NCBI GenBank assembly: GCA_027922465.2
Contig: BQMF02000136.1
Coordinates: 558,001-622,000 of the forward strand
Length of the DNA stretch: 64,000 nucleotides
Direction of reading: 5' to 3'
Source of the DNA: Turritopsis dohrnii
Taxonomy: Eukaryota; Cnidaria; Hydrozoa; Anthoathecata; Oceaniidae
Below, one piece after another: positions 27,364 through 64,000 of this stretch (its first letter is position 1; the number at the start of each line of letters is the position of its first letter). The translations under genes and the position numbers were made by a program. The notes beneath the pieces are model-generated. The model did not search any database. It worked only from the letters and a program-made list of their open reading frames with translations, and was not told the origin of the DNA.

Positions 27364-29319
27364 TTTATATATCTGCTCTATTGAAAAAAGTAGATTGTTA
27401 CTGTTACTTATATACAAAGAATAACAATTATAGCGAGTATAACAGAACAAAGCCAACAAAGATTTTTTTTTTGAATTTATTTTAACGAGGCCGGGGGGAA
27501 CTGGCAGTGTTATTCACTGATGTGGACCTCCACCAGATTTTAAGGCAGAGAACTTGCACATACTAGACTGATAGGTGATTGTGGTTTTTTTTATAATGTT
27601 ATTTGAGGCACTTGTTCATTACATCACATCATGCACATGTATATCTCATTATAGCTTTTGTTGCATATGTTACTTGTTCATATCACATTAGCATTCTACA
27701 GTGCCAGGATTTGAACCACTACCTGTATTACAAGTCAACTGTCTTACCAAGTGAGCTATACACCCTTATATAAGATTATAAGTTTTTTCTTCTTTATCAA
27801 TCAAGATGCTTGAAAGATATATACAAAATAACGAAATATAAAAATTACGAAATGAAAAAAAAGTATATAGACTGAATATGGAACTATAGATAAAATGAAG
27901 GAAATTAAAAATACACTTATTATATACAATATAATATCACATATAACACACTTCCAAAATCAGGCCAAACAAAATGCCACACACACAATATAAAAATGCA
28001 AGGGTATTATCACATATAAAATGCTGTTTGATTTCACAGGTGGTTGTAACATAACGTGACTGGACATAAAATATATACATGATGTGATGAAGGGAAAAAC
28101 ACAGCACTCACAATAATGGGGAGGAAAATAATATAAATGTTTGAAGTATCTAATGAATGACAAACAATGGCACAGAGAAATAAATTGAAGAACATATTAT
28201 ATAGTTTATTTCTTTCGCTTCATATAGATAATATAACTCATAATAGGAAAAACACCACTCAATCATAGGCATGTGAAGATAGTATATATATACCTAAAAA
28301 ATGGTAACATTTAAACTGTAAATATCAAAACTTTTTCTATTATTATGGCTATGGGCACAGGTTTCTGCTACAAGAATGAAATGCAATGGGACTTTGAATT
28401 ATGTTTCAATAATAGTTGTTACTTTTTAACCCTACAGTGTTTTACCAATAAGTGAAGGGAAAGTTAAGTGCAGCCACACAAAAAATAGAAACAGCTAATT
28501 TCGCCTCAGGACATTTTACGCCGCGACTTATTGGTGAGCCAACCAGGTTGATTTAAAATTTTCTCGCGATATTTTTCCGCCTAGGGTACGATTTTACGCC
28601 TGACTTTACGCCTGACAGAAGAATCGAAGCAGCTAATCAACAGGATGGTTTTCACGTGTGGATGTGTCAAAGGCACTTATGCTTTTACAACATATTTATG
28701 GTTGAACATTTGTTGCAAAATACAACGAACAGTTTTCATCTTATTCAACGAACTTTTAATCGCAAACTTCAATGGACGTCATTGTAATTCCCTTGCCCCT
28801 TATAGTGCGTTTTCAGTCAAGTCAAGTTGTAAGCTATGTGAATTTTTACGAGCACGAGTATAAACTCTTGTAAAATACATAAATTGAAGGAATATCAATA
28901 CGAATGCACCCTTCTTTCTGCATTCACTGACTTCTATGGGAGGCAATTGTTCAGAGTTCACTTTCCAGAAACGAGAAAAAATAGCTGGAAATTTGGTATT
29001 TTTTGTGAAAATATTTAAAAGTCACGAGCACAAAAAGTCGTGAATCCTAAAAAAGAAAAATGTTGCGTACACAAAATGTTGTGCTTGCAAATGTTTGTGA
29101 CTTTAAGGTACTATTCTAGTTGACGACCTAGCATGTTTATCTAACAAATTCATCATAACACCATTAAACTTCTTGCAGCTGTAAAAACTCTCATTCATTA
29201 CGAAAACGTATGGAGTCATCACATAATCAATTGCTCACTAAGTCCAATAAATTTGACAAAATTTCTATTTGGACCAATATAGATGGTTGTACTTAACTTA
29301 CTTTCCGACTGCTTATGTA
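27364..29319. other. 5' flank of Ku70: LINE tail and tRNA-like remnant
   Basis: 27470-27550 (tttattttaacgaggcc, then ctgatgtggacctcca) matches the 3' end of the LINE at 31785. It begins about 105 bp upstream of the Ku70 start, so the proximal promoter must be short. 27693-27772 contains, on the minus strand, sequences like Pol III A and B boxes (tagctcacttggtaaga and ggttcaaatcc). The rest is AT-rich with no supported gene. Confidence 0.45.
27693..27772 (-). repeat. Degenerate tRNA-like sequence (SINE head or tRNA pseudogene)
   Basis: The A-box-like and B-box-like words are about 40 bases apart. The D, anticodon and T stems do not pair convincingly, so a working tRNA is unlikely. The loop region ttgtaa hints at descent from a Thr or similar tRNA. 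Confidence 0.35.
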
Positions 29320-31784: not shown

Positions 31785-34010
31785 TTCGTAAAGCAGGTAG
31801 GTACAATGGCAGCTTTTAAGCTGATGTGGACCTACAACTAAAAATAAAATAAAATGTAATTTAAAATTTTGGGCAAAAATACTATAAAGCAATGATCATC
31901 AAACCTCCAAAAAGATTAGAATGACTTGGATTGAGCACAACAAACAAAGCCTCGGCTAGACTAAAAGAGAATTACACACAAGAAAGCCTTGGTTATGTAG
32001 AGGGTCTAAGTTAAGAATGTCGAATGATTCAATGTGTTTGAATTATATATGTACATGAATAAGTTAACTATAAAATGCTGCTAAAATCTAGTAAATTTCA
32101 CTTCAGTTAATAGTGTAATAATTATAAAGTAGCTATATAAATTATAAAAATATAAAATCATTGTGAATATTATAAGTGTTAAGAATAAAGATGGATTTTC
32201 TTTTTGAATTTGGTCATTTCACTTTTAAAATTATTATGCAATTCAATATTAGTCAGTTCTGTTGGCATTGCATTCCACAGTTTTGACCCCCTCATTGTGA
32301 ATGTGTTTTGGTCATTTCAAAAGTACCTTTTTAAAATCGTAAACTTATTCTGGCAACGAATACCATACCTTTTCTTTTCTTTAGTGAACAGTTTCAAATG
32401 ACAGGGTCAATTTGCTTGTAGCAGATCTTGTACATCAAGCATAAGATACATCACTTGTACAAATAATCAATTGGCATCCATCCTGCATGTTCTAGCGAGT
32501 CCTCTGTTGTCAGGTATTCAGGTAGGTGGTAAATAATCCGAGCTGCCTTGGCATGGATTTCGTCCAATTTGTGAATTGAATGACTATTTCCCTATACCGA
32601 AATGTTGTACACAACAGATTGCAGAATAGCTACACAGTAAAACTGTGTCAAGACTTTAATACCGAGTTTTGACATTCTTTTCAGCATCTTCACTTTGCAA
32701 CAAAAGTTCTTTAGCGTCTTTTCTGTATGGGGTCTCCATGAAAGTGTGTTATCGATAATAACACCTAACACCTTGTGATTTTCAACCAACTCGAGACTTC
32801 GTCCACATAAGGCAACATCCTGAACTGGGCTGATGAATTTCTTTTTCGATAAGATCATGATTTTCGTTTTACTTGGGTGGATGACCGTACCATTACGTGT
32901 TGACCAACCCTGCAAACGACATGATAGGTTTTGAAGCAAAGGTGTAAGCTGGTCTATGGTTTCTGCTACACGAAACCTGGTTGTGTCATCAGCAAACATT
33001 TCGGCTTCGTTATCTGCACTGCTGATGGTATCCTACTAATCATCACTTTCACAAACTGCATCTGTGAGATCGTTGGCATGATACGAATAGCACCTGGGTC
33101 CCAGTAGTGTTCCTTGAGGAACTCCCTGGTCAACTGGCTCCTGTTCTGATGTGCTATTGCAGACCGTCACAAACTGCTCCCTATTGTCAAGATAGCTCTT
33201 GCACCATTCATATGCATCACCAGATATCCTCATAGCCTTCATTTTTTCAAAAGAGTTTCATGGCACACACTGTTGAATGCCTTGCTAAAGTCAATCAGTA
33301 GAACTCCTACTATTTTACCACTGTTTGTATGAGCCGACCACTTGTCACACATGTTTAGAAGCATCAGCTCAGGAGATCTTTCTCTTCCGAATCCCCACTG
33401 GTTGCTGCTAAGCAGTTGATGATGGTATACATGTGAATCGATTTCTGAGGTGGCGACTGCTTCAAGGAGTTTCCCTGGCAAGCACAAAAGAGAAATAGGA
33501 CAATAATTTTCAATTTTGAGTTTTGAACCCTTTTTGTGGATGCAGCAGACCTTGGCGACTTTGTGTTTGGTTGGAAAAGTGCATGTTTGGAAACTGCTTT
33601 TAGCTACATAGTGAAGTCCATTCAGAGTGTCTTCCCCTATTATTCTCACCACTTTTGAACTCACTTTGTCATGACCTCCAGATTTGTTTGGTTTAAAAAC
33701 TCCTTTGAAGACACAACCAAGTTTGTAAAAGTTGTAGTTGATGTCACTTAATTGTTGGGGAATTGTGGTAAACATGGCTCTGTTGAGAGTTAGCTGGATC
33801 CTTGTCTACTTTTCCGATTGTTTGCAAAATATTTATTGAGATGACCCATTTCTTTTCATTATCATTGGTAATAATCCCTTTAAAGTCCTCCAATGGGTCA
33901 ATGTTGCACTTTTTCTTCTTACCGGTGAACTCATTTATGCACTGCGAAAATTCTCTACTAGATGAAGAGAGACCACTAAATCTTTTTTCCAATAGCAAGC
34001 CTCCACAACT
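31785..34010 (-). mobile_element. CR1/Jockey-like LINE, near full reverse transcriptase, frameshifted
   Basis: Minus-strand pieces follow in order: a pre-RT region with CINEFTGKKK (33998-33744), the RT fingers with KPNKSGGHDKV and NQWGFGRERS then LLIDFSKAFNSV (33775-33239), GVPQGTLLGPRC (33242-33036), FADDTTRF with VLGVIIDNTLSW (32999-32592), and a thumb with HAKAARIIYHLP and LTTEDSLEHAGW (32590-32400). The first catalytic Asp of the FSKAFD block is Asn. At least three frame breaks make it inactive. The 3' tail near 31785-31850 shares ctgatgtggacct with 27518. Confidence 0.85.
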
Positions 34011-36225: not shown

Positions 36226-36498
36226 TTAATTATACTTATATCCGATTCCAGAGAGTTAGACAGAATTTGATGGAATTCTGTTGGGTTGTTTAGAAGATGA
36301 CGTGATAGAGATTATAGTATCATAGACGTAGTATTATATTAGTAGTATTATATACATAGTATTATATATGTAGTATTATATAAATCCCGTCTTTTGTTGC
36401 ACAATTTAGGATTAGATAATTTTATTATCAAAAGAAAAATACCTTGCAATGAGATAAAACTGGTTCATTACTGTTTAACTGAAAGCATATGATTAAAG
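36226..36498. promoter_or_regulatory. 5' flank of RBM19
   Basis: AT-rich, with a tandem tagtattatata word (36325-36385). The RBM19 promoter probably lies here, only about 270 bp from the Kolobok-like element; no defined motif was recognised. Confidence 0.3.
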
Positions 36499-38948
36499 AT
36501 GTCAAGACTTATTGTTAAAAATTTGCCAGACAAAATCAAAGAGAATAGAATAAGAGAAGTGTTTTCATGTCAAGGTGGTGAAATAACTGATGTTAAACTT
36601 TGTTTCACAAAGAAAGGTATCTTTCGTAAATTTGCATTTATTGGTTATAAGAACGAGAAGGATGCTGACACTGCATTGCGATTTCTCAATCAAACGTTTA
36701 TTGACACAAACAAGATACATGTGGAAATTTGTAAAGATTTGGGTGATTTAACTGTACCAAGACCTTGGAGTAAATATGCAAAGGAGAGTTCAGCGTTTCT
36801 CAGGAAAACAAAGGATGTCGAAAAACGTAAAGAGCGTATTCGAAATTTGCAAGAAGGAAAAAAAGAAAAAAAGAAACAAAAAATGAAAAAGTCACGGGCA
36901 TTGAATGAACTTGCAGATGTTGAAGATGATCCTCAATTTCAAGAATTTTTATTTGCTCATTTGAATAAGTCTGTCAAATCCACCTGGACTAATGAAACTG
37001 TGAAAGCTGATGTGCCTACAAACAAGGTTAGTTCTAACATGTCTTGCTTTTTTATTGTTTTAGTTCATTCTTCCCAAGTGTGACTTTTTACTGTTCTATT
37101 CCATAGGCAGTTACCTTCCCACTTCATCATCTTATTAATAATGTTATAAAGTTTCCTGTTGTTCAAAGATTTTTTTTATCCACCAATTTTTTTCTACATG
37201 GCCGCATTGATTATATTTGATCGGTTTCATTTGAATTTATGGGTATTAGAAATTTGAAATTATTTGTTATATTATTCAAATATCTACGTAAATGTTTTAA
37301 ATTGACATGTTTCAGGAGAAAGACGCATCAGATGAGGAAGATGAGACTAACCATGAGGGCAAAGTAAATGTTGGCGATGGCATTGAAAACCAGGTTGAAA
37401 ATGTTCATCATACCGATGATGAATTGAAACCAAACGCTGCAGAAAAAGAAAAAAAATGTTCAGATTTGGACTGGTTGAAATCGAAGGCTACAAGAACGAA
37501 AGTATAAACCCTTGCTTTTAAAAGTTGAAACAGTTTTACATCTTTATGTAAAGAAAACTCTCTCTGCTTTTCCTTCTTTTACATTTGCCATAATTCTTTG
37601 TTATAATCAGTTCAAATTCTTTCAACAGGGTGAATCATCTTCCCAAAACGAGACAACCTCTTCTAATACCATTTCTGAAAGACATGAGAACTCTTCTGAG
37701 AATTCTAAAACTCAGAGTGTAAAACAACAAGTTGGTCAAATGGCTTCATCTACTATCAGGATGAGAGGAATACCATTTAAAACCACTGAGCAAGATATTA
37801 TTAAGTTTTTCGAACCCTTAAAAATAGAAGATATACGTTTGCGAAGAAATTCTCAAGGCAAACTAAGTGGCTATGCATTTGTTGACTTTGAAAATCCTCA
37901 GGATGCTTTAAAAGCTCTACAGAAAGATCAAATTGCAATGAATGGTCGTTATGTGGAATTATTCTTGGTGCACAATAAAAAAGATGATGAAAGTATAGCT
38001 GACTGGAAGTGGAATAAGAGAGTAAGCCTAACAGAATAATCTAACTTCTCAAAACATACTGAACTGTCCGGAGTATCACATTATGATGTTATACTAAATG
38101 CAATTAAGTCCTGGGTTGTTTGGAACGCTTACTGCTCTGTTAAATGTGTTATACATGTTTTTATGAAAGAATGTTGTAATATTGACAACATGACATTTTA
38201 GGATAGCAAAGAGGATGAAGAACAACTTTCTGATACTGGTCGATTGTTTGTAAGAAATCTTTCTTTTGCATGCACTGAAGACGATTTACACCAACTGTTT
38301 TCTAAAGTTGGTCCATTGGTTGAAGTCAACTTGCCAGTTGATAAAGACAGCAATAAAAGTATAGGAATTGCTTTTGTAACATTCATGATTCCAGAGCACG
38401 CAGTCAAAGCCATTTCCGAATTGGACGGAACCATTTTCCAAGGCAGAATTTTACATTTGCTGCCGGGAAGAGCAAAGAAAACAAATGAAATTACTGGACT
38501 TCATGGTACTGTTTGTAGCTTTATTCATATGAAATTATGTTACTTTGTCAAACATCTGATGAATTCCTGCCACACTCATTTTCATCTAGTCACAGGGAAA
38601 GTCCAAAATCAAGGGTCAAGAAAACAGAAATTTTTTTTATTGTTATTACTTATCAAATAGGTGCAACATCTTCGTATAAAAAGAAAAAAGAAGAAGAACA
38701 GAAAAAGTTAAGCAGCAGTAATCATAATTGGAATGCTTTATTTCTTGGTCAAAATGCTATTGCTGATGTAATGGCAGCACGATTAGATATAAGTAAGCGT
38801 GGTTTATTGGATGCACAAACTGATGGTAGTGTGGCTGTCAGAATGGCATTAGGCGAAACAGAATTAGTGTCTGAAACAAGAAAATTCTTAGAGTCGCACG
38901 GTGTTAAATTGGATGTATTTGGTCAGGTGGGATATCTTTGTTGTTTTC

Positions 38949-44534: not shown

Positions 44535-47500
44535 TTACAAACTACAAAAGCGTCTGGCTGATGGTGAATCATTTCTCCGAACTGACTGTTTACAGCGGTA
44601 ACAGAAGAGATATATCCTTGTATGGTAAGGACTATCTACAGTCACGCAAATAATCATATGATGTGACAGTCACGCAAATAATCATATGATGTGATAAAAC
44701 ATCATGAGGATAGTAAGTCCCAGAAAAGATTCACTCTTACGTCCTAGAAGAAAATATGAAGACTGTTAGTATTCCGTCACTGTTTCATAATAACAAAGAA
44801 TTTCGAACAACATTATACTTACCAGTACTGCATGTTGAGCATGGTTTTTTACTCGTAGGTTTGACTGTGGTGTAAAGATTAGGTTTGAAATTATACTTAA
44901 TATAATCGCTATATGGCCATCCTCTAACTTTGTTGACGTCGTCGTATCCGACATCGGATAACATGATTCCGGCAATACGAGAATATTTTGGAGCGTATTT
45001 CTAAGATTAAAAGATACATTAAGATATCAAGTCAACATTTATAAGGAAACCTTATCGAAGAACAGAAAATGTCTGAGAGTTTAAATCAACCATAGAATTG
45101 TGGATTAGAAGAATCCAGTAAGTTATTGACAACTCGTTAGTTTTGAATGAATTTAGAAGTTAAAATTGTCAATTAAACAAGAATCCAATTAGGCCAGCTT
45201 AAGGTTAAAAGTATTTACCTTGTATAACTGAATTGTTTTTTCTCTATTGATATAATATTTTCCATTTTTGACAATGAGTGCGCTAGATTGAAGTCCAAGA
45301 TAGATACTTGGTCCAGGAAGAGATAACCAACTATTTAAAGACGTTTCAAATGCTTTTGTGTTAGCAGCATTGCAGTTGCCAACAAATGAAATATAGAACG
45401 CGTCAAATAAGTGACTGCTTTGTTTGTAAACATCTTTAAGTTGAAGATGCTCTAACGAACAAGCTGCAGTGGTTGTGATGAGGTATTTTCGATTTGAATC
45501 AGAATTCATATACCTCCTGAGTTCTTGAAGAAATTCATTGAAATAATCACGCTTTCCACCCTGCGCTATCTCGATGTTGATGCCGTTCGGTACAGCGCTG
45601 TAGTAAGATATAATCGAATACCAGTGAAAACAAGAACATGAAATGATGACAGAAGAAAACTGGAAACATTTCTACAAATTAACTATACCTGTTAAAAGTT
45701 CTGAGTCTGTGTGTTCCACCAAGAAACAAATTCCATACACGATTAGCAAACAATTTTGCATCCTGCACTGAAACAAATCCATTATATCTTGCTCCTTCTG
45801 CACCGATTGAAAGAATGATTTTCTTCCCACGATACTGACAATACTTGATTTGTTGAGCTATTCTATCGCATTTCAAGTATGTTGGGTATTCTTTTCCAAA
45901 ATTATGAACGCAATGCCTTGCAAATGTCATTCCAGGAAATCCATCTAAGGGAACCATAATGTGATGCAGGTATATGATCTGATATATGAGTATGTGTGGA
46001 CCGCTATTGAGCCTTAAATATCCATTACAAATCATACCGAGAATGTTTTACCTTTGTTGTTCCCCATGTCTGAAAATATGTGAACAGCTTTGATTATTAT
46101 GACATCATAAGATGCACGGTTGCAATAATGACCTAGTTCCAATTCATTTTGACCTTTATAATTGAAAATTTTATTTTGTCCCCACTGTCCAACCAACTGG
46201 AAATCTGAAAAATAGAATATTGTATTCAATCAATCAATCAACAGTTTGCGCATTAAAACACCCTTGGACTCCTCCTCCTCCTCTTCCTCCTCCTCCTACT
46301 ACTACTACCGACCGAAATGGCAGTTTAGCCTGTGCAGCTTACCAATGTCGCTTCCGAAACTGCGTAAATTGCAACTAAAGAACGGAGGCTAATAATTTTT
46401 ATAACTATCAAAACATTCTTTATACGTTCTTTTAGTATTTTACCATAGATTCGCCATTAAATAAACATTTTCCTATTAAAAATACGGTGGGGAACTTTAG
46501 TTGCACCTAATTTGAAACACGGTTAAAATAAACTTAAGCTTTGGTTTTGGAACGTCTTGTGCTTCGAAGTTCGAAGCTCTTTTCTTCTTGCAGTTACAAA
46601 GATTCATCGAAATTCATCGAACTTAAACCTTTTAAAAGCATTTTACATTTTATTATATTTTGTACGTGTGTATTTGGTTTGCTTGTCTACAAAAATGTCT
46701 TGGATTAAAGTTGGAAACGGTTTTACTTCGTTTCTTATATTTTTAGAAGACGTTTGTTTTTTTTTTCTTTCCGGTCTTTTATATATGCGCTCTTCTTTTC
46801 TCACCTCAACTATTGCTGTCAAATCTGGGGTCAACCGATCAGTCTTTACCTTAACCGCATTTCAGTTCTCCAAAATAGTGCAATCCGCCTAATGTCTTTT
46901 ACTGAACCAACCGCCAGTTCGTCTGCTCTTTACAAAAATGTTGGCCTACTAAAGTTTGCAGACATTGTGAAACTTCACAACGCAAAATTCGTCCACAGTA
47001 TTTATCATAATTCAATTCCTGAACCTATCATAGATTCGTTTGCGGTTGACTTCACCCATGCTCATAACACAAGAGCCAATGAACAGGGACTAATTAATTT
47101 TAGATCAGTAAGAACTTCCACCTATGGCCTAAAGTCTATACGCCACCAAAGCCTCCTAACCTGGCAAGAACTACAAAAATTATTCTGTAACGGAAAGCTT
47201 TTTGATCTGAGCTACAATGCTTTAAATCACAAACTTAAACTGTTGCTTCTCGAGACATACTAGATCCTCAAATACTAGTTTATCCTATGGATGCTTAGAC
47301 AGAATATATGTTTGTATGTTTGTGTGTAATGTACTTATCCCTTTGTCCTGTTTTATGTTGTATTGTCCATGGTAGTTGCCAAATCTTCCAGCTTTCAGCT
47401 TGTTATGGCAATTCCCAACTTAAAACGTTCGTTTCTTTAAATAACCTAAAGCATTTATTACTAGCAACCACCACTTTTTTATCTTACTATGCTAAGCTAA

Positions 47501-50500
47501 TATTTGCTTAAGAAATTAACACCTGTAGAATGTTTTTAATGAAATATGTATGAGTTCCTTTCTTCCTTCCTTCCTTCCTTCCTCTGATATAAAAAAAAAA
47601 CATAGTTTCGTGTATTGTGCATATTTCTTTTGTTTGTATCAAATAGTTTTCTGGTGGTTTTAGTTAAGCCCTGTTTACACTTTTTCAAATGAAAATTGCC
47701 TTAATTTAAGCCTAAGAGATAAACAAAGTTCGACAAAGCTTCATGGGGCTTTCAGACTAATTAATTTAGAATCTTTTTATTTTTGTACATTGCGAGTTGA
47801 AATGCTGCTACCGTTTTGTGCCATATGGCTCTTGTTTATATAAGAAGACACATCTTATATGAATATTCAGGTCAAGATGGTCTAAAATTTAAGAACATTG
47901 TAAGAACATACAGTATTACCACATTTGGTGAAAACAAAACAAAGAGTTTCTATAACATACTTTTGATATAATTTGGAATGGCTGTTGTTGTTGTTGTCGC
48001 CGTCGTCGTCGTCGTCGTTGTTGTTGTTGTTGTTGATGATGGTGTTGATGATGTTATTGTTTGTGGAACTTTTGTTCTTAATGTGGAGGTTGTTTTTTTC
48101 TGGGTTGAAGATAATGTGTTTAAATCTGTGGTTGAAGTGGTGGTGGCTGTAGTGGTGGTGGTGGCTGTTGAAGATTAGGTTTAGGGAAAATTAAGTACAT
48201 CGTGAAAATTAATGCAGGTGATAAGATAACCACTTGAATGTAAACTTACTTTTAGTGGCAGGTAATGCTTTCGTCCATTCAATCATCTTTCCAACATGTT
48301 GGCTAAATGTTTCTCCATCTATTGACGTGTGATCATCATATCCAGCATCCCAAAGATAAAATCCTCCAAAGTATTCATCAGTTCTCAAGTACTGAAAAAG
48401 TAAAATTTATATTGCTTATACTTATGTATTGTTTACTAGGTTTGTTACACAACAGAAAATGTCTCCAAAGAATTGATATAAGTACATGTAACGTACATTA
48501 TATCTTGTAATTAAATTTTAAGAATGAAAACCTTTTCGTAAATTCCACTCAAAGATGTTGGGGTCATATACGTTGCCGGTGAGATAACAGATGACACTGG
48601 TAATCTTAGGTATATCATTAAAGTATCGGATTTTGTTTTCAAGGCTCTCCAGTCATTGATCGTTTTTAAAAGTCCTGGTCCAGTCATGTCACAAGATGTT
48701 CCATCAAGATAAACAAAGATGTTGTCTATATATGATCCAACGCTCTCGTAGAACGTATGGTGTTGTTTGTCTGGGTACTCACAACCAGTCATTATAGATA
48801 TGAAGTATGATTTTTTGTGATCAGCTTTCATTAACTGCCGAAGTTTGACAACAAAATCAATCCAATGACTATTGTCCTTTGTTGCAGATGATAAATATAT
48901 TGTTAATCCATCAAGTATTGCACTGAAAGGAGAAAAAGTTTGTTACAAAACAACAGTGTTCTATGTTCTATTCCATTCGATTAAAATTGTTTCATACTTA
49001 TTGAATGGTCTAGTTGTCGAACTTCCTCCAAAGAACATGTTCCATATATCAGTAGCTAACTTTTCTGCTTTAACTTTTGAACTGATTGTCATGTCTCTGC
49101 TTCCAACACCACCAAGTGTAATAGAAAGTTTCTTCTTGTTTTGTTGACAGGTGTATATGGTTTTTTCCAGGAAATGACAGTTAATGATTTTCCAATTATC
49201 TGGTATCCAACCGCAATGCTTTGATAAATCCATTGTTAGCTGATCGTCTGTAAAGTGAAATATTCAACTTTTGGTAAATACACAGTAATTGTGTAATCAC
49301 AAGACCTATTCTGAAATACCTACCATTCACTGATGTACCTAATCAGTAAATTACCCAGGTAATAATAGGGAATGGGCTGACCAACAAATTTGGGTCTACA
49401 AACATTTGGTGGAAGGTAGGGGAATGATCCCATACATTTTTTAGATCATTTTTGCGAGCTGTACAAGATGAATACGCTTTTCACTCACCAGATCATATTA
49501 GAAATGAAAACCGCTAAAATATTTTGTTTTCGTTAATAAGAATTGTAAATTGACCGGCATAAAGAAGGGTGATATGGAAAGTTAATGGAAAATCAACTTG
49601 CATATTACCTGTATTGTATAGTAAGTTAATATCAATGATATCATATTGTTTGAGTGAACAGTATGCTTGCAAATCATTTTCCGTGTTTCCTCTCTGGTGA
49701 ATCCGATTTTGACCCCAGGATATAGCAAGGTTTTGGACATCTTAACAAACCAAAAGAACAAATTTTAATCGCGATTATTACGACAATAAAAATATCGTAG
49801 AAATCTGAACATACGTTTAGCTGTAACAGGATGTGTAGAATCTGTAATTATTGTTGCTTTTTGCTTTGTAGTTGTTGATGGTGTAGTCGTTCCTCAAATT
49901 GAGAGATAATTTCCAATTAAATTATATTAAGATGACTGTAAATTTCCTTTGATCATTTTCACACTCAAAAGTCCTTTAGAATGGTGAAAATAAGGGATTA
50001 CTATCAATAGGAGACATACTTGATGCAAAACACTCAAATTTCAATGGTTGTTAGATATTCAAAAGAATAAATTCAAAATCAGTTCAATTCAGTTCGTTAC
50101 TTGTAATTTTGGTCTGTTTTGACCATTGAATCATTTCTGAAAGATGTTGACTGTATTCGTTTCCATTCACTGAAGTTTGATGATCGTATCCAGCATCCCA
50201 TAAGAAAAATCCACCAAAATGATTGGTTGTATTCAATGCCTGTAATGAAGAAAACATACTACACGAATACTGAATACTGAATACTGAAAATTGCGATGTT
50301 TGTTATGAACTAAATGGATCTGTCAGTCCCTTTCCTTTTCAAATGCCAAATAATAGAGCATGACTGCTTTGCGTAATTATTGAAAAGAATTACCTTCTGA
50401 TAAATGTTTTTTAATTCTGTCGGGCTAACATACACGTTATGGTAGGATGCTTCTCTGGATACTGGTAAACCAATATAAATATCAGGTTTTTCTTTTCCTT

Positions 50501-53500
50501 TTCTTAAGAATGCCCACGATTGCATAGCTGTTCTAATGGATTCATCAGTGGCATTACAGCCATTTCCATCCATGTGGACATAAATATTATCGATGTAATC
50601 TCTTGTGTTATTGTAAAGATTACTCAGTCCAATATTTTTTATTTGGCAACTAGTCATAACTGAGATGAAATATGATTTTCTTTTATCTTCATGCATCAGT
50701 TTATGTAGCTGGACGAAAAAATCTTCCCAATGTTTGAAGCTCGTTGTTGCATTTGTTAAATATATCGTAATTCCATCAAGTATAGCGCTATACAGAACAT
50801 AGTTTAGTTATATTTCGATCTCACATCGATGTAAGGTGAAATACTAGGGACAAGGCAAAAAATTATCGTAACAAGTATTTTGAAACAACACAAATTAGTG
50901 TCAACAAGAGAGATACCGATTAAATGGTCTAGTTGTCGAACTTCCTCCAAAGAACATGTTCCATATATCAGTAGCTAACTTTTCTGCTTTAACTTTTGAA
51001 CTGATTGTCATGTCTCTGCTTCCACCACTAATGGTGATTGAAATCCTTTTGTTGTTTCGTTGACATGCTGTTATTTCTTGCTCCATGGCATGGCAAAACA
51101 GGACTTGCCAATTATCAGGTCTCCATCCACAATGTTTTGATAAATCCATTGTCAGCGAATCATCTAAAAGAATGTTTTTGTTTCTGTGACAGTGGCATAG
51201 TGATGGAACATATACAAAAAATAGTAAATAAAAATATATAAGATGTATAATTGTAGCAAAATGATGGTCGTTATTTGTTTGTCGCATTTGGTTGCTGGTT
51301 AGCAGTACATTTCTGTTTTTGTATGTGTTTTCCTAGTAATTAGTAAAGCAAGTTCCGATACGATCAAAATTAACAGTATTAGTGGTGCAGAAAATTACCT
51401 GTGTTATACATCAGAAACATATTGATGACATCATATTGTTGTTTAGCACATAATTGACCCAAATTTTCTTCAAAACCTGCAATATTTGAGACACTATTTT
51501 GACCCCACGCCACGACGATACTTTGTCCACCTATGATAGATAAACTTGACGGTATAAAGAATGTTGTTGACAAGATTAATTGATTTTCTGTATTTTAACT
51601 CGTTGATGGGAAATGTCCATTTATCGTTTTTGTAAATACGACCAATTAATATTGCCTACATTCTCAAGGGAAGTAATAACTGTAGCTTAAATGAGAGTAG
51701 GAAAATTTCTTCTCGGTTTCATTTATTTATATATAGTGTCGGGAAGTTTTGTTCATCTGCGTGATGTTGGTGATAATATGTGAAAACGTAACATTTGAAA
51801 ACTTGGATTTGAATTTGAGGGACTGGGGATGAGAATATTTCCTGTTTTCTTTTATCAGCTCATTTTAATTATTTGATTGATTGACAAGGATTACTTTCGT
51901 GTAGTTTCTAATAACTTACTAGGCAAAGATCTTGCGGACGCCTCTATGAAGATATCCTTTACGTGGTCACTATATCTTCGATGATCAATTTGATTTGCTT
52001 CATCCCATCCTGCATCCCAAATCATGAAACCACCAAATGTCTCTTCGTACTTTATTCTCTAAACAGAGAGATCATATGTGTTTATGATATGTAAATAACT
52101 GTATTGTGTTAAACATTAAATACTCACGTCAAACAGTTGTTTCATCTGTTGGATAGACAGATAATATTTCGGGTTAGTTTCGGTAGCCTTTGCATGACCG
52201 GTGATTCCAATATATACTTTCATGTTCTTGGAAGTTTTAGCTAAACTTATCCAGCTATTAAAGGACTTATCGAAAGAATTGCCACTTGGAGTGCAGAAAT
52301 TGTTGTAAAATTGCACATAAACTTCATTAATAAGATCTTTATGTTTTCGAAAGATAGCTTCCATTTTTACATCAGGATAAGGGCATTGTGGTGTTGCAGT
52401 TAAAATGTACTTTCTCGATGTGTCTACTGACATTAAGCGATTTAGTTCTTCGACAAGGAATGTGTATGCACTATTGGTCTCCCCAGCTTCGATATTTAAA
52501 TTTACTCCATCTAACACAGCACTAAAAAAATATATGCAGTTACGTGGAACTACCGTAATGTCGTTCAAATCATAAATGTAATTCTTTAAGGTTCGACATC
52601 TTCGAGGAATAGTTTATAGCAACGATTGTTACCAATTCATCTTCTTTTGCAGATAAATTTCCAACAAAAGTGACACAAGGAAATTATTTAAAATGTAATT
52701 CTTACCTTCCAAAAGGTCTGAGTCTTGAATCCTGCTTTCCTCCAAGGAATAAATCCCAAATTCGTCTTGCAAATGCAAATATTTCCCTTTTATCATTTGG
52801 CAACTGATACTCACCAGCTTGTCCACCAAGTGAAATCTGCACGGATTTCTTGTTCTTCTGACAAAGTTTTATGCCCTCTTCAATAGCAGGTGGACAAAGG
52901 AAAAGTTTAGGGTAATCTTTATTTGGTGCAAATCCACAATGTTTCGAAAGGTTTATAACTGGATAGTTGTCTAGAACAAACAGATCAGACCTGCTCAGCG
53001 ATCCATATGTGGCTGAATAGTATAAACTCAATCGTAAATCAAACTGGAAGTATACTTACTGTTGCTAGGGTCAATGAACTTAACAACAAAACCGATGATG
53101 ATGACATCATAGGCCGAGTTTTTACAATAGTCCTGAAGGGGACGTTCGCTCGCTCCCCCATTTTGTCCCCAGTATGCAACGATGTGATGCTGAAGGCTGT
53201 CTATAATCAAAAGAAACATTATACACAATCAAAGCCACCAGCTCATGTTTTATTTTCTGACTATGAAAGACAAGTAGTGTAAATTTAGACTTAGACATGT
53301 TTCGAGAGTTGGGGCTTTACTTGGATTTATGGCATGATGTTTTCTTTGAATATTATCAGAAAGCATTCATCCTTCAAAAATAAGAAATCTAATAACACAT
53401 AAAAAGTATAAGTATAACTATCTGTAAGTTTAAACCAATCGTCATAATCGACGTCATAAATATGACGTCACATATGTTAAACCGAAGATTTGAGCGTGTC

Positions 53501-53599
53501 AGAAAAACTTTGAAAATATGAGATAAGACGAACAGGCAGAGAAATTTCACCTCTGATAAATACAACACATAACATTAAAAACCAAAGTCGTGTCGCCAT
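44535..53599 (-). CDS. Secreted protein with four tandem inactive hevamine-type GH18 domains
   Basis: Nineteen exons: 53599-53551, 53200-53060, 52970-52706, 52521-52128, 52058-51920, 51530-51399, 51163-50917, 50787-50394, 50239-50101, 49892-49815, 49740-49609, 49247-48998, 48922-48532, 48391-48250, 46204-46052, 45944-45689, 45597-45219, 45000-44823, 44581-44535. They give 1301 residues, all phases consistent. Residues 1-16 (start MATRLWFLMLCVVFIR) are a signal peptide. Domains I (17-329), II (330-633), III (660-964) and IV (965-1286) resemble plant/fungal class III chitinases: a VAYWGQN-type first strand, ISLGG, W-N/D-x-F-x-GG, YIGI/YIGL and GGF-x-x-W-D-A/S. The catalytic DGxDxDxE reads DGVNLNIE, DGITIYLT, DGLTIYLS and NGINIEIA. 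Catalysis is therefore very unlikely and glycan binding is plausible. A Thr-rich linker (634-659) separates II and III. Confidence 0.88.
46754..47263 (+). pseudogene. LINE C-terminal fragment (CR1/L2-like), antisense in intron
   Basis: The frame encodes the region after the RT palm: FSHLNYCCQIWGQP, a YLNRISVLQNSAIRLMSF motif, then LLKFADIVKLHNAKF and HAHNTRANEQ, a typical conserved set of L2/CR1-group elements. Palm and endonuclease are missing. It differs in family from the 2763 and 31785 LINEs. Confidence 0.75.
47978..48178. repeat. GTN trinucleotide-rich low-complexity tract
   Basis: Runs of gttgtt, gtcgtc and gtggtg give a poly-Val pseudo-frame. It is a simple repeat and not a gene. Confidence 0.85.
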
Positions 53600-55870: not shown

Positions 55871-56230
55871 AAGTACAGAAGAAGCGAATAAGTTGACATA
55901 GCTAGGGTTGACATGATTGGACATCATTTGGATGGTATCGGTGGTCCTATTTTATTGTATATTTGGTCAATAAATAAAAAAAGGCTTTTTTATTTTCGTA
56001 GAAAAATTTATATCTATATCACTTTGGTATGATTTCAAATTAAATGTTTACAGACTCGATTCAAAATTTGCTATTCTGTCAGATCAGCTTTGGCATTAGG
56101 TCTCATTTTGCGCATGAAAAATTACGAACTGTGAAAACACAGTTGTGTTTTGATTGTTTACAGCGGAAAAAAATACTTTTGAACAAACCAACAAAATGCA
56201 TCATGATGTAATCAAATCTCCAATTGGACA
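55871..56230. promoter_or_regulatory. 5' flank of the repeat-motif secreted protein gene
   Basis: AT-rich, no defined element. It probably holds the promoter, since the start codon follows at 56231. Confidence 0.3.
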
Positions 56231-58799
56231 ATGAGGACTGCGGTGATGCTTTTGCTGACTTTGTGCTTCATCTGTAATGACGTTTCATATACTCGAAGAC
56301 ACTCAAAGAAACCAAAGGTATTTGGTGGCTTTACAACCTATGGATTCCGGAAAAATATTATATCAAAATTACCGAAAGAGAAAACTAAGTTCCTAGACAT
56401 TATTTTAAACCGCGCTGTAACGGAACTGATGAATAGTATTTCAAATTCAGAGAAAAGGAAACAAATTGCAAGCAGCAATGAAAAAATATTTGATTTTAAT
56501 GAGCTGCCGTTAAAACTACGGAAAGATTTACAGAGTTCCATTCGAACTGCGAGGAAGACTTGGAAGAATTCGAATCCATTGTTTGATCCGTTCGATGGAG
56601 GGAATGATCCTTACACAGACGCAACTAGTAATACCTCTGATTCCCCCCGACAAAACAACCTTGAAAACAATCAACCTTCTATTGAAGATGATGGATCACG
56701 TGATGGATCACGTGAGTTGATGCAAAACAAAGAGATAGTATCAGTAAAAGCCAATAAAAAGGAAGAATTGCATGAAAAGTATTCGAAATATTCTGAAAAA
56801 TCATCATATTTTAAAAAGAATAATGACAAGATTGACGATGACAGAGTAAGCGAAATTTTACCAGTGGATGGTGGTAGTATCATGCTCCTTAAAAATGGGC
56901 GAGACAATGACGAAATTAAACTCGATGTTCCAAATGTGCAGTTTGATGTGAAGTTAAACTCGTCAAATGATCGAGACAATATGGTCAAAAATCTAAAAAC
57001 TGCCTTGCGTTTTATTAACGCTTTAAAATTCAAAGAAGATGGAGAAACAGATGATTCCCAATATATTTCGAAAAATGAATCACTGATAATTGGTCAAAAG
57101 AGAGGAGGTGCTGAGAAGAATGTAGATGGGAAGAAATTACTGAATGGTTCTGTTAATTCCTCATTGCCTGAAATAAAGTAAGCTGCATGAAAATGTTGTG
57201 AATGAAAACATGAAGAGAGTAGTAATCCAAAGTCATTAATCACTATCAGATCTTTTCATTTCTTCTCATTCAGATCTAGAGATCCCTCGTCAGACTTGAA
57301 GAAACTGCTTCCGCAGAAAGCTTCATATTTTATTGATCATGATGGAGATTTGTATAGAGTTGAAAAGGTTCACCTTGCTACTGATGCTCAAAGTGATATA
57401 CCTCACTCTAATAGCAGTGACATCGTTGAAAAACCAACAGTTCACCAAAATGAAAAGAATGTAGAATTGAAGCAGATTGAAATAAAGAATGGAATTAATC
57501 CAACCCAAAATAGTGACTACTCTCAAAGAACTTCAAAGTATATTATTCCTTGTTTGAAAGCATCTTTTTGTCACGTTTTCCTGATTTTTTCCAGACTCAG
57601 CTTATTTCCTTTATAGAATCTCTCAGTCATGTTGCACGGCAAACAATTTGTTATTAATGTCAAATCAATGGTTGATTTCTTTAGAAAACTGCTCAACATA
57701 CAAAATTATGTCATAAAACTTCTTTATTTAGCCTCCAGAAGTCGGATAAAGAACTTGAAAACCCAATAAATGCTGACAGCGAAGAGAATTCTTTCATCAT
57801 CAAACATGGCGTACAAATCTATAAAGTTGTCCAAACAAATGAGAATCGAGCAAGTGGCAGATTGGAGAATCAAGCAAGTGAGAGATTCGAGAAAAAAGAA
57901 AACGATTTTCAAAAGTATGTGTAACTGTAAAGGGCGAACTACACGATCTTTTTAAAAGGAAGATTTAAAAGGATGAAGAAAAAAATCATCTATTTTCGAC
58001 ACGCTACTTCTTTCTTTCTTTGTTTACACTATCCTTTTTTTCTTAATCCTTTGAAATTTCCTTTTAAAAAGATCGTGTAGTTCGCCCTTCACCTTCGAGT
58101 TCCACTAGCTCGAGCTCTCAAATGGGTGAAGTTCGAGTTCACGAGAGTCAACTTTACTTTAAATGTAGCAAGAGAGATTTACTTTGAATGTAGCAAGAGA
58201 GATTTATTGCGTTAGCTACCAAACCCCACCATTATCGCTATTACCACAAACTGTTTCTTTATAGGAATGCAGACAACACAAGCTTAAATGACAGGAAAAA
58301 TTTCGATAATCAAGTGAATCCAAGGGAAGATAATCAAGTGAATCCAAGAGAAAGTGAAGAGAACATCGTAAAGGAAACGCCTGGCTCAAAAACAGACGAA
58401 AATACCTATGAGATAAAACACAACAACAAAATCTTTCGTATTACGGAAATCAAAAATAAGTCTATGACAAGTAGTCCAAACACTCGATCATTGGCAAGTA
58501 TACCTAGAGATGAAACATCAGGCAGTTTTAATACCGAACCTACAACTACCAACCAAGTAAGTGATAATACTAAAAGCAATACAAACAGTGGCAAAAAAGA
58601 AATTTTAAGTACTACAGCCAATGAAAATGGCGCAATACAGTCACGTGATGAGTATGTATCTCAAGTATCTGATGTTTCCAATTCAAGCAACACAAGTGAT
58701 GATGAGGACGTTACGTATGTTTTCACGACAGCAAGCAAACCAACTTACGATAACAGAGAATCATTTAACAACACACTCTACGAAGATGTTACCCCATGA
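56231..58799 (+). CDS. Secreted protein of unknown family with exon-borne repeat motif
   Basis: Four exons: 56231-57177, 57274-57537, 57732-57914, 58265-58799, giving 642 residues; every intron is phase 2. The N-terminus (MRTAVMLLLTLCFICNDVSY) is a signal peptide. The rest is hydrophilic, rich in Ser, Asn, Lys, Asp and Glu, with possible N-glycosylation sites and dibasic pairs, and has no transmembrane helix. A motif of the form F/Y-x-I-x-H-x-x-x-I/L-Y/F-R/K-V/I appears once in each of exons 2-4: YFIDHDGDLYRV (334-345), SFIIKHGVQIYKV (424-436) and YEIKHNNKIFRI (513-524). I do not recognise the family. A matrix, secretory-granule or precursor protein is possible. The start has an in-frame signal peptide directly after it, which supports it. 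Confidence 0.7.
57931..58088. mobile_element. Harbinger-like MITE in intron 3 of the secreted-protein gene
   Basis: AGGGCGAACTACACGATCTT and its complement end a 158-bp element. The flanks are TAA on the left and TCA on the right, one base off a TWA duplication. Confidence 0.7.
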
Positions 58800-61004: not shown

Positions 61005-63344
61005 TTATAAGGCTGCTGCTTTTTTAGGCGAGCTATCTGGCCTCCAACCTTTTACCACAAAATTCAAGAGTTTTTTCGATTCTATGTTTGACATATTCAC
61101 ACCGTGGTCATTTTTAAGCGACATCAATGTATCTTTGTCAAGTATGTCCAGCAACAACTCTCCATTCACTTGATTCCGTTGACAAAAACTCGCCAAGTCT
61201 ATTAAATTTATTGTGATCAAATGAATGTATACGTCACTTTCCGACCAGTCACGTGGGTTTAGACTGTTTCTACGTGATGTTTGAGACGGACGGTCCCCGC
61301 CCAGCTCTGGTCGCCATCCTTTTACGTATTTCATAATCTTTTTTGCTTGGAATAAAGAAAGTTTTAATTCATTAACAAGATCATCTACTTCGAGATCAAT
61401 CAAAAGTTCGCCATTAATTTGATTTTCTTGGAAACTGTTTTTAAACTCTTCAAGTTTAAGCGATTCAAGTATTCTACACACTCCTTCTTCGCTGTATTTT
61501 CTGATCTCTTCGATACTTTTACGTTGAGCTGCTGTAAATGGCGAAGGAGCGCTCACGGTGGAATCCTCAGTTTTGGAACCATCGCTTTGTGATGGATAAT
61601 TTGACGTCATAAATGACGAGTTTGTACCAACTGCGTCGTGTTTACAGGATGTATTGTTACTGTTGTTGTTGTTGTTTATGTTATCTGTCTCTTCACTGTC
61701 CGCTGACCACAGATAGTTCGCGGACATCTTGCGTGACGTCATATTTCTCTCGGACATCGGTGAGCGTTTCAGTGGAACAGGAATACTCCATTCAGATAGA
61801 TTATCGAAACCATGATCCCCTGCGTTACTTGAAGCTGTTTCTGGTGTCAAACGAGAGCGGGAACGGGATCGATTTTGTTTTCTCCCAGACAAACATATTC
61901 CACTGTCACTGCTACCATTTCGACTATGTCTCCTCTTGATGTGAGGAACCGATTGGTTATCTAAAGATAGCGCATCCATACATTGTTCTATATGGTGAAA
62001 TGAACTGTTAAAAGCACTGTCACTTCCGCTTGATCGTATGTCAATTGAACAAAGACCGGTACTAGAACTTCCATCGTCACTTGTCAGAAATGTGCTCGTC
62101 GACTGAGTGTCAAAATCTCGCTGCATGTTTTTGTCTTCCATTTTATCGCATTTGCTTTTCGACTTTGATTTGAATTTTTTGAGGCTTTTCAAACTCAATT
62201 TGGATTTTACAAATTTTTCGATGTCTAAGCTGTTGTTCCGTTTTTTCCCATCATGAGTCGTTTTGTTCCGTTTTTTCCCATCATGAGTCGTTTGAATGGT
62301 ACTGCTGCTATCGAGACTTTTCGAACTCTTTCGTGAAAAACTATAATCATTGATGTTGCTGTTGTGTCGGCGAAGTATCTGCTCGTGACGTGTCGGCTCG
62401 TGTCGTGGTAACAACGGCGTGCGCAGTTCGTCGTAAACTTGATTCTGAAGTTCGCATGACGTATAAGGGTTATTAGTAGACATATAATCAAACCTTGTCA
62501 AATCAATTTTACCATGTGAACGATTGTTGGTCGATTGTGGTCGGTTGTTCACCAGCCCTTCAGCAACCTGAATTGTGATTGGCAGATCAGCCGAAAACGT
62601 CATAGCATGTCTCACACCATCTATAACCGATGTCGCTAAAATTGAGTTGATGGACAATTTCTTCTCTAAGCGGATCTCCCCTAACTGAGGACCGTAGCCA
62701 CAGTTTCTTTCACTAACCGGTAAAAACTGGACTTGAAACGGTAAGGAATGTTCTTCGTATAATTCCGCTAACAGAAAACTCTTATTCACCAAATCCGTTT
62801 CTATGGTTTCCATAAAAACTCCATTTAAATGAACCGGTAGTACGAACCGTCTCTCTTGACATGACGGTTCATTAAAATCCGGTACACGGCAATTAAGTCC
62901 GATGATTTGATTTTCATCTCCTATCACATGATCCATAATTTCTAGTGTCGACCATGATTGCAGTGCTTCGATGCCATCTCCTGTTTCCAAACTGTCTTCA
63001 AGCCGAACAAACTTTGGTGGGTGTTCACAAAAACACAACTCTCGTACCGAAGTAAACCTTCTTGGGTTTCCTAGCGATACGATTCGTACCTTGTATGGGC
63101 AGGAAAAAGGGATGTTGAGGTCTTTTCCATGTTCATCTGTACCAAGAAAAGCATCGGATCGTTTTTTCCCATGTAGCGTTAAAACCTGACCACTGGCAAT
63201 CGAGTCGTCTTCGTCAACCATATGTCCTTGCACTACCCGTACGATTTGTGGTAAATTAAAATTCGGGTTGTCAAGTACAAACTTTAATTTATATTCTGTG
63301 TCGTTCCAGACGATCCACTCATTGTTCATGTCTACATCTTCCAT
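61005..63344 (-). CDS. GAREM: GAREM-like CABIT-domain protein with two SAM domains
   Basis: GAREM proteins are cytoplasmic adaptors downstream of receptor tyrosine kinases that link to Grb2/Shp2 and ERK signalling. This 779-residue protein is encoded by one uninterrupted coding exon. Residues about 10-265 form a CABIT domain (VVQGHMV, LTLHGKK, PYKVRIV, RFVLPVHLNGVF). The middle is a Ser-rich linker with a Lys-rich patch and a duplicated THDGKKRN motif. Two SAM domains follow at about 616-678 (ENQINGELLIDLEVDDL) and 698-769 (RNQVNGELLLDILDKDTL), each ending in KGWRP. Vertebrate GAREMs have one C-terminal SAM. A likely 5'-UTR acceptor (ttcttttcag) lies about 50 bp upstream. I did not find a clear Tyr-containing Grb2 site, so the signalling role is inferred from family. 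Confidence 0.85.
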   Translation of the reverse strand: MEDVDMNNEWIVWNDTEYKLKFVLDNPNFNLPQIVRVVQGHMVDEDDSIASGQVLTLHGKKRSDAFLGTDEHGKDLNIPFSCPYKVRIVSLGNPRRFTSVRELCFCEHPPKFVRLEDSLETGDGIEALQSWSTLEIMDHVIGDENQIIGLNCRVPDFNEPSCQERRFVLPVHLNGVFMETIETDLVNKSFLLAELYEEHSLPFQVQFLPVSERNCGYGPQLGEIRLEKKLSINSILATSVIDGVRHAMTFSADLPITIQVAEGLVNNRPQSTNNRSHGKIDLTRFDYMSTNNPYTSCELQNQVYDELRTPLLPRHEPTRHEQILRRHNSNINDYSFSRKSSKSLDSSSTIQTTHDGKKRNKTTHDGKKRNNSLDIEKFVKSKLSLKSLKKFKSKSKSKCDKMEDKNMQRDFDTQSTSTFLTSDDGSSSTGLCSIDIRSSGSDSAFNSSFHHIEQCMDALSLDNQSVPHIKRRHSRNGSSDSGICLSGRKQNRSRSRSRLTPETASSNAGDHGFDNLSEWSIPVPLKRSPMSERNMTSRKMSANYLWSADSEETDNINNNNNSNNTSCKHDAVGTNSSFMTSNYPSQSDGSKTEDSTVSAPSPFTAAQRKSIEEIRKYSEEGVCRILESLKLEEFKNSFQENQINGELLIDLEVDDLVNELKLSLFQAKKIMKYVKGWRPELGGDRPSQTSRRNSLNPRDWSESDVYIHLITINLIDLASFCQRNQVNGELLLDILDKDTLMSLKNDHGVNMSNIESKKLLNFVVKGWRPDSSPKKAAAL

Positions 63345-64000
63345 CGTTATTTTTATTCTTTTGATTGTATGTTTCCGTCAATATCTTTAAGCTGAAAAGA
63401 AAAAAAGTATTGAAATTACTAATGGTTGCTACATAACAAACTTAAATGATAAGAATGGTGAAAAACTCTTTTTTAATAAACCAGTTAATGAATGGCGTGT
63501 GATATGAAATTATCAAAATGTCACACAGGAATGGAAAAGCGAATGCTTCTCCATTATTTGAAGTTGATGCAAATTCACTTAACATTCTTTTTCAGAATGT
63601 CAGAAGGTCTTTATTCAGAATTTTTGCATTTACAATACCATGCCAATGATGTTATAACAAATTAAATTTTACTATAATGACATTATACTGCTGTATGTTG
63701 ATCAGATTAAAACAAAATAAAATTGATAAACAAACAAACTAACAAATTGTTTACTGAAATATAAATAAACTAGGTATTGCAGGTGTATTGAATGTGTGAA
63801 GCACTGTTCATGATCCCAGATGTCAGCGCTCCAATGCAGTGTTGTTAAGAGTTTCAAGAATAGATAGAAGTTGATGTAATGAGTGATGTCAGTTAGATTT
63901 CCTGTTGATACAGCGTTCTAGAAGCTTTTAGAAAAACTGTCATTTCCTACAAAATAATGATTCGAATGCATCCATAGTTCCTTGTCGAAAAATTATAAAC
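63345..64000. other. 5' UTR and upstream intron of the GAREM-like gene
   Basis: On the minus strand a pyrimidine tract and cag acceptor lie at about 63392, so 63393 onward is probably a 5'-UTR intron that continues past the window edge. 63475-63530 matches the repeat at 59788-59845. Confidence 0.5.

Follow-up and report, generated by a model that had tools for sequence, protein, structure and literature searches.

Why an animal should keep a protein built of four consecutive chitinase folds when none of them has a complete catalytic site is the question raised by a gene of Turritopsis dohrnii, found in a stretch of 64,000 nucleotides (contig BQMF02000136.1, positions 558,001 to 622,000 of the forward strand) that is called the window here as a whole. 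The gene occupies 53599 to 44682 of the minus strand, within a span that a sequence-only reading of the same DNA had extended to 44535, and its domains I to IV belong to the hevamine-type class III branch of family GH18. Its residues, architecture and relatives lead us to favour, with some reserve, the reading that it encodes a cell-surface pseudoenzyme which would no longer cleave chitin and would serve in recognition or adhesion.

Fold and catalytic residues

Each domain alone had its best PDB matches among hevamine-type structures, with E values of 3.4e-44 (I), 3.5e-24 (II), 1.6e-24 (III) and 1.8e-26 (IV), and all four belong to this fold family over the whole barrel. Pfam PF00704 was detected above its cut-off in domains I and IV and just under it in domain III (28.3 of 29.6 bits), and no match was obtained for domain II at E 0.01. 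Together with the spliced model presented below, the PDB matches confirm the signal peptide and four consecutive class III folds that the sequence-only reading had announced.

Catalytic and cleft residues were compared in the hevamine order 6, 123, 125, 127, 181, 182, 183 and 255, where the numbers 6, 123, 181, 182 and 255 are those that we take these positions to have. The numbers of Asp125, Glu127 and Tyr183 are found in the available excerpt of PMC3662789. Domain I carries Tyr, Asn, Asn, Glu, Gln, Phe, Tyr and Trp at these sites; domain II, Ala, Thr, Tyr, Thr, His, Met, Asp and Trp; domain III, Ser, Thr, Tyr, Ser, Tyr, Leu, Asp and Trp; and domain IV, Gln, Asn, Glu, Ala or Gln depending on the alignment, Ser, Phe, Val and Ser. 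The motif DxxDxDxE with Asp125, Glu127 and Tyr183, as in an active enzyme, occurs in none of the four. Only the two Asp are gone in domain I, which keeps the cleft residues Tyr6, Gln181, Phe182, Tyr183 and Trp255, while both Asp, the Glu and Tyr183 are missing from domains II and III, and domain IV has lost the Glu, Tyr183 and Asp123 and has a Glu replacing Asp125. The residue table bears out that no catalytic site is complete and that the Glu survives in domain I only, without its assisting Asp (Asn123, Asn125, Glu127), both as previously claimed. Another acidic pair at the catalytic position, the case named as refuting that claim, was not found in the residue alignment: domains II, III and IV have no Glu at the acid/base position, and the only other Glu is that of domain IV at the Asp125 position.

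A dead site in a retained fold, the signature of a pseudo-GH18 protein, is therefore what the gene presents, the fold of the window protein being read from its sequence, with a structural model for a Hydra relative only. By their titles, PDB entries 1kr1 and 7zy9 are class III enzymes whose two catalytic carboxylates were changed to Ala and which hold chitotetraose (the carboxylate change of 7zy9 is visible in the alignment), so that lost catalysis need not abolish binding.

Gene model

Exons were set manually, guided by open frames and splice signals. The resulting model has 20 exons and 1374 amino acids with no inner stop; every one of its 19 introns is of the GT-AG type, and the phases connect with no frameshift. 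Each of the domains I to IV is a module of four exons with the identical phases 1-1, 1-2, 2-0 and 0-1 (exons 2 to 5 in the case of domain I, a numbering kept for the other modules), and two additional phase 1-1 exons encode Thr-rich linkers, A preceding domain III and B, with 52% Thr, preceding domain IV. The features are as follows.

53551..53599, minus strand: exon 1, start codon and signal peptide MATRLWFLMLCVVFIR (by hydrophobicity); donor GTGAAA, phase 1
53060..53200, minus strand: domain I exon 2 (YWGQN strand)
52706..52970, minus strand: domain I exon 3
52128..52521, minus strand: domain I exon 4, DGVNLNIE (Glu kept, both Asp changed to Asn) and VQFYNN; Pfam PF00704 on the open reading frame
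51920..52058, minus strand: domain I exon 5 (GGFMIWDAG)
51399..51530, minus strand: domain II exon 2
50917..51163, minus strand: domain II exon 3
50394..50787, minus strand: domain II exon 4, DGITIYLT
50101..50239, minus strand: domain II exon 5
49815..49892, minus strand: linker A exon, Thr-rich, phase 1-1
49609..49740, minus strand: domain III exon 2
48998..49247, minus strand: domain III exon 3
48532..48922, minus strand: domain III exon 4, DGLTIYLS
48250..48391, minus strand: domain III exon 5
47961..48164, minus strand: linker B exon, mucin-like poly-Thr, 52% Thr, 68 codons, phase 1-1
46052..46204, minus strand: domain IV exon 2
45689..45944, minus strand: domain IV exon 3
45219..45597, minus strand: domain IV exon 4, NGINIEIA
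44823..45000, minus strand: domain IV exon 5, donor ACTG/GTAAGT, phase 1
44682..44743, minus strand: terminal exon GRKSESFLGLTILMMFYHII and stop, hydrophobic tail resembling a glycosylphosphatidylinositol (GPI) signal; exon and splice sites also in the paralogous loci copy 2, C333 and C46

Because every domain repeats four exons with the same phases, the locus looks like one modular gene rather than four; it has one start, a continuous phase and one terminal exon, and its Hydra relative is also a single protein. Four separate genes, the alternative raised by the sequence-only reading, are ruled out at the level of the gene model by phase continuity, the single signal peptide and the single tail exon. 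The four motifs, DGVNLNIE at residue 156, DGITIYLT at 460, DGLTIYLS at 791 and NGINIEIA at 1173, are exactly those previously given, at positions that were one lower for the first three and 68 lower for the fourth; the sequences stand and the numbering does not. The offset of 68 indicates that the earlier model apparently left out the 68-codon linker B exon, which fits within one residue; the terminal exon 44743-44682 had not been mentioned either.

C-terminal tail and probable membrane anchoring

The last domain exon has an open frame up to a stop at 44785, but a strong inner donor (last base 44823) ends it in phase 1, the phase that also ends exon 5 of each other domain, and an acceptor then leads into the terminal exon. 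The donor, acceptor and frame of this tail recur in copy 2 (GRKIESLLGLTIFMMFYQIL and stop), in C333 (GRTIESFLGLTVCMIICQIL and stop), whose tail frame is open even unspliced, and in C46 (GRKMESFLGMTILMIFYQIL and stop). At the protein end, a hydrophobic stretch of about 14 residues follows small and polar residues, and within the final CSTGRKSESFLGLTILMMFYHII, closed by the stop, lies a 14-residue stretch that is among the three most hydrophobic. Small and polar residues followed by a hydrophobic end are the general layout of a GPI signal. Since this hydrophobic tail is conserved, the protein is more likely to be tethered to the membrane in a GPI-like manner than to be freely secreted, as it had been thought to be.

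A gene running on into a seven-transmembrane (7TM) region was also considered and rejected. The GPS-7TM parts of Hydra adhesion G-protein-coupled receptor (GPCR) models gave no match below E 0.15 by tblastn in the window or in loci L021-L032, and the tail exon closes with a stop; the GPS and downstream 7TM of an adhesion GPCR were thus not found in the same gene. When the 30 kb downstream were compared at the DNA level with the 21-32 kb downstream of three paralogues, nothing past the tail exon was common to all three. The window segment 36233-35151 matches C46 and may be a repeat.

Relatives in Hydra

A whole-protein search returned 42 proteins, of which the best match was Hydra vulgaris LOC100211314 (P0121, 1126 aa, uncharacterized; E 6e-216), a protein with three dead domains whose motifs, DGVNLDIK, DGINLNFR and DGINIDFR, have all lost the acid/base Glu. 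With the window gene it shares a start like a signal peptide, class III domains in tandem, a linker rich in Thr and a hydrophobic segment at the C-terminus, and it differs in having three domains with no counterpart of window domains II and III, Lys or Arg in place of the Glu, and a longer C-terminal helix. In its structural model, made from 17 sequences, three regions look like barrels, residues 322-456 form a disordered linker and residues 1092-1125 a C-terminal helix; the mean predicted local distance difference test score (pLDDT) is 70.6 and the predicted template modelling score (pTM) 0.41, at which domain packing is not interpretable. Foldseek comparison of this model with the PDB placed AfChiA1 and ScCTS1 first, with hevamine, XIP-I, XAIP, concanavalin B and TCLL among the first 30 rows.

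A two-row profile search, which scored only the 7990 candidates sharing most words, gave 8 matches that include LOC100211314 and, at E 6.9e-65 and 2.5e-31, two models of Hydra adhesion GPCRs, P0163 ('G6 isoform X3') and P0164 ('G2 isoform X7'), each with an N-terminal class III domain reading NGVNLDIT. The N-terminal part of P0163 matched yeast CTS1 in the PDB at E 3.6e-35, while Pfam detects only GPS and 7tm_2 and recognises the class III domain in neither model. Like the window protein, both models have a dead type I class III ectodomain (P0164 starts inside it) and then a Thr/Ser-rich stretch; unlike it, they have a single barrel followed by GPS and 7TM in the Pfam results.

That tandem inactive copies are undescribed in animals, as the sequence-only reading supposed, is thus right in one respect only: they already exist as an uncharacterized Hydra protein, and neither cnidarian class III chitinases nor dead tandem copies were described in the titles and abstract openings listed from the open-licence literature, which does not prove a gap in print. 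The excerpts of four cnidarian studies report chitinase activity in a Velella nematocyst extract (PMC11509761), expression of Hydractinia chitinase genes in gland cells as well as in cells connected with the chitin of the stolon (PMC11876637), a response of Hydra viridissima GH18 and GH19 genes to symbionts (PMC6019070) and the cloning of a Hydractinia echinata GH18 enzyme with the catalytic Glu (PMC1945033); these excerpts contain nothing on the window protein.

Paralogues, signs of constraint and possible exon exchange

A search of the same genome with domain I gave 40 exon-level matches, and loci were taken from C136, C46, C224, C34, C3, C72, C11 and C333. Five separate loci (C224a, C224b, C34, C3 and C72) have an intact DxDxE motif, DG[IV]DLDIE or NGVDLDIE, and keep all eight sites, Tyr6 lying outside the C72 and C224a rows; the active relatives that the sequence-only reading proposed to look for in this genome thus have their candidates. 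The dead-type loci are also five: the window gene; copy 2 (DGVNLDIR, DGLTIYLS twice, NGINIEIA); C46 (DGVNLDFR, NGINIEIT), which has in-frame stops; C333, where only a type IV domain was found (NGINIEIT); and C11:1409750-1412400 (L031, L040), with DGINIYMD, RYIN for QFYNN and IMDNS for LWDAS, with a mucin-like stretch rich in Thr and Pro after it. At the two intact-motif loci of C224:448-458 kb (L026, L027), exons 3 and 4 are fused, and a hydrophobic segment that resembles a transmembrane one and has a basic tail prolongs the C-terminus.

Between domain IV and C333, the ratio of nonsynonymous to synonymous substitution rates (dN/dS) was 0.37, 0.38, 0.34 and 0.24 for exons 2 to 5, and about 0.33 when summed (45.3 synonymous differences over 199 sites, 65.7 nonsynonymous over 770). 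Other exon comparisons gave 0.17-0.33, which brings 11 of 12 within 0.17-0.38, all being point estimates without a significance test, from comparisons that are not independent. There are consequently signs of constraint on the dead domains, in agreement with the selection that had been supposed to retain them.

Copy 2, an inverted near-copy of the window gene, lies at a distance of about 88 kb on its contig (C136:699332-722200, L021-L023); its 3' end is rearranged, and the beginning of its domain IV exon 5 was not located. Identity between the two copies reaches 98.6% across 1690 bp of exons and introns (49263-47582) and 95.8-97.2% across most of domain IV, and 88 bp of domain I exon 5 are the same in both (100%); for domain I exon 4, the exon bearing the active-site face, copy 2 gave no nucleotide match at the settings used. 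In domain I, the synonymous divergence (dS) from copy 2 is 0.04 in exon 2 (28 sites), 0.50 in exon 3 and 2.7 in exon 4, and the exon 4 tree joins the domains I of copy 2 and C46 (97/82), both with Arg at the Glu127 position. Because identity to copy 2 is this uneven from exon to exon, gene conversion or exon exchange would be its simplest account. Inside the window gene, exons 3 of domains II and III share about 100 identical bases (49004-49105 and 50923-51024, by eye) within an 82.9% identical block, and their exons 4 have only 43% protein identity; the stretch is likely a local gene-conversion tract. About 800 bp at 46783-47582, in the intron between linker B and domain IV, have no counterpart in copy 2, where the two flanks lie within 8 bp of each other, and hold most of a reverse-transcriptase-like frame (46709-47263, plus strand; family assigned by eye, no Pfam match); this is probably an insertion that followed the duplication.

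Origin of the losses

The 30-row tree, in which the rows of C11, C72 and C224a are partial, has three starred groups of interest: window I with copy 2 I and Hydra I (98/93), window IV with C333 and Hydra II/III (100/98), and window II and III with copy 2 II (100/100). Both Chytriomyces rows and Theobroma were dropped before the exon trees and the tree without catalytic columns; C46 domain I was also left out of the exon 3 tree, and the same row and copy2_IV4 were left out of the tree without catalytic columns. With these columns removed and the GPCR domains added, a type I group including the latter (98/95) and a type IV group (99/98) were again obtained; window II/III, on a long branch, have no firm place in the tree. 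Asn stands at position 123 in all type I, type IV, GPCR and C11 rows, and in Desmophyllum as well.

By these groupings, the loss in domains II and III is a single one inherited through duplication. Since window I groups with Hydra I, and window IV with Hydra II/III, a protein with both type I and type IV dead domains probably predates the split from Hydra. The free tree leaves the dead domains unjoined, and a constraint uniting 12 of them (a clade test with the C11, Chytriomyces and active-type rows outside) was not rejected, with a log-likelihood 5.37 lower and an approximately unbiased test p-AU of 0.173. A single origin of the losses is thus neither proven nor rejected, and the case for independent loss in all four copies, on which the sequence-only reading had built, falls with the loss common to II and III.

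Proposed role and rival explanations

The signal peptide, the four class III barrels, the mucin-like Thr linkers and the GPI-signal-like tail would together lead to display of the protein at the cell surface. Because its cleft is intact but Asn stands at both assisting Asp positions, domain I would probably bind beta-1,4-N-acetylglucosamine (GlcNAc) glycans without cleaving them, candidate ligands being the chitin of perisarc, prey or microbes. For domains II to IV, other ligands or protein partners are more likely, or a part in spacing or clustering the molecule.

Several observations weigh against this role. Domains II to IV have no -1 subsite (Tyr6, Gln181 and Tyr183 are gone) and domain IV is without Trp255 as well, so that chitin binding by all four domains is doubtful, domain I being the only one to keep the chitin cleft, and the earlier proposal of multivalent binding through this cleft is not upheld. 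GPI anchoring is deduced only from the sequence pattern, and among the three other loci that share the tail, both copy 2 and C46 carry damage in other places. The comparison of domain I exon 2 with copy 2 gave a dN/dS of 1.03, on 5 differences only, and three of the low ratios are rough, their dS being high (1.2-2.7). Hydra LOC105844664 (P0028) has the same change at position 125 (DGLDLNIE) while keeping Asp123, the Glu and the other catalytic residues. Lastly, domain I itself keeps Glu127, and weak hydrolysis or transglycosylation is possible. Domain I could then be a slow chitinase or transglycosylase, with II to IV as accessory binding or spacing modules, as the persistence of Glu127 among intact Tyr6, Gln181, Phe182, Tyr183 and Trp255 would allow; exon 4 of window domain I is moreover far from those of copy 2 (dS 2.7) and C46, which group together (97/82) and have Arg there. 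However, Asp123 and Asp125 are both Asn, the Glu is gone in five other type I domains (copy 2, C46, domain I of the Hydra multi-domain protein and the two Hydra GPCR models), and narbonin keeps the Glu and is yet inactive according to the excerpt of PMC3662789. We regard a slow enzyme as unlikely.

Binding of proteins instead of glycans, in the manner of the xylanase and amylase inhibitors XIP-I and XAIP, would make the barrels an inhibitor or scaffold. XIP and XAIP are among the PDB matches of all four domains, II to IV are without the sugar subsite residues, and a related domain forms the outer part of the Hydra adhesion GPCR models. Protein ligands are common for adhesion GPCRs. The sugar cleft kept in domain I speaks against such a function for the protein, which we regard as rather improbable. 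It is very improbable, on the other hand, that the locus is a duplicated chitinase cluster turning into functionless pseudogenes: C46 has its in-frame stops, copy 2 its rearranged 3' end and missing start of domain IV exon 5, and the window intron its 800 bp with a reverse-transcriptase-like frame absent from copy 2, but the window copy is intact across 20 exons, 11 of the 12 exon comparisons give a dN/dS well under 1, and Hydra keeps a relative of similar layout with the same kind of dead domains.

Taken together, a cell-surface pseudoenzyme with a recognition or adhesion role is the reading preferred here. Its stronger part is a dead class III family that also exists in Hydra, on a probably tethered multi-domain protein and apparently on receptors, and its weaker point is the four-fold chitin lectin. 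A wider and tentative proposal, which we think possible though doubtful, is that hydrozoan class III chitinases gave rise to a surface receptor family of tethered multi-barrel proteins and GPCR ectodomains, whose binding face would be diversified by exchange of exon cassettes between the inverted pair. The locus is of interest as a natural example of a family of enzymes apparently turned to recognition in an early-branching animal; active-type paralogues in its genome are built-in controls, and LOC105844664 is a useful control for window domain I. If the GPCR link is true, it would provide a candidate cnidarian sensor of chitin or other glycans, and exon-wise mosaicism, if confirmed in individuals, a testable mechanism of diversification.

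Other genes in the window

A Ku70/Ku80-type gene with Ku_N, Ku and Ku_C domains lies at 23929-27513 on the minus strand, and two RRM frames at 36493-38657 on the plus strand are probably one gene. A 790-codon open frame (61008-63377, minus strand) holds CABIT and SAM domains, and a frame with a THAP domain is found at 6357-6761 (plus strand). Reverse-transcriptase frames are located at 19275-20045 (plus strand) and at 33242-33805 (minus strand), the latter under the Pfam cut-off. A 324-codon open frame (56207-57178, plus strand) includes a stretch resembling a signal peptide; Pfam gave it no match at E 0.001.

Comparison with known systems

The domain I search found 1003 proteins, and among the best 120 of these, 9 carry the name of a cnidarian (Oculina 2, Desmophyllum 1, Hydra 3, Actinia 1, Orbicella 2). 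Class III chitinases are thus ordinary in cnidarians as judged from these matches, contrary to the view that they are unusual in an animal. The chitin-binding domain PF01607 accompanies 19 of the first 22 matches and 4 of the 9 matches named cnidarian, and Pfam did not find it among the domains of the window gene. The cnidarian single-domain class III enzymes share fold family and motifs with the window protein but keep DxDxDxE and Tyr183; two corals are altered (Desmophyllum DGVNLDIQ, Orbicella DGVDLSIE).

Among multi-domain proteins, the second whole-protein match (P0122, metagenomic) has three domains and Ser/Thr-rich linkers and, unlike the window gene, two of its three motifs are intact (DGFDFDLE twice, and DGFNFDIQ). 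P0144 of the chytrid fungus Chytriomyces hyalinus resembles the window gene in having two tandem domains without the Glu (DGVDLHLW, DGIDFHLW) and has no starred link with the window domains in the tree.

Dead GH18 folds also serve binding in the vertebrate and insect proteins YKL-40, Ym1 and IDGF, which belong to a different GH18 branch (class V type) and are mostly single-domain soluble proteins. Closer in fold are tamarind TCLL, concanavalin B, narbonin and XIP-I/XAIP, in which, according to the excerpt of PMC3662789, a dead hevamine fold is used for binding or inhibition. These plant chi-lectins and inhibitors are single-domain and soluble, whereas the window gene combines four such domains with linkers and a putative membrane tail, in an animal.

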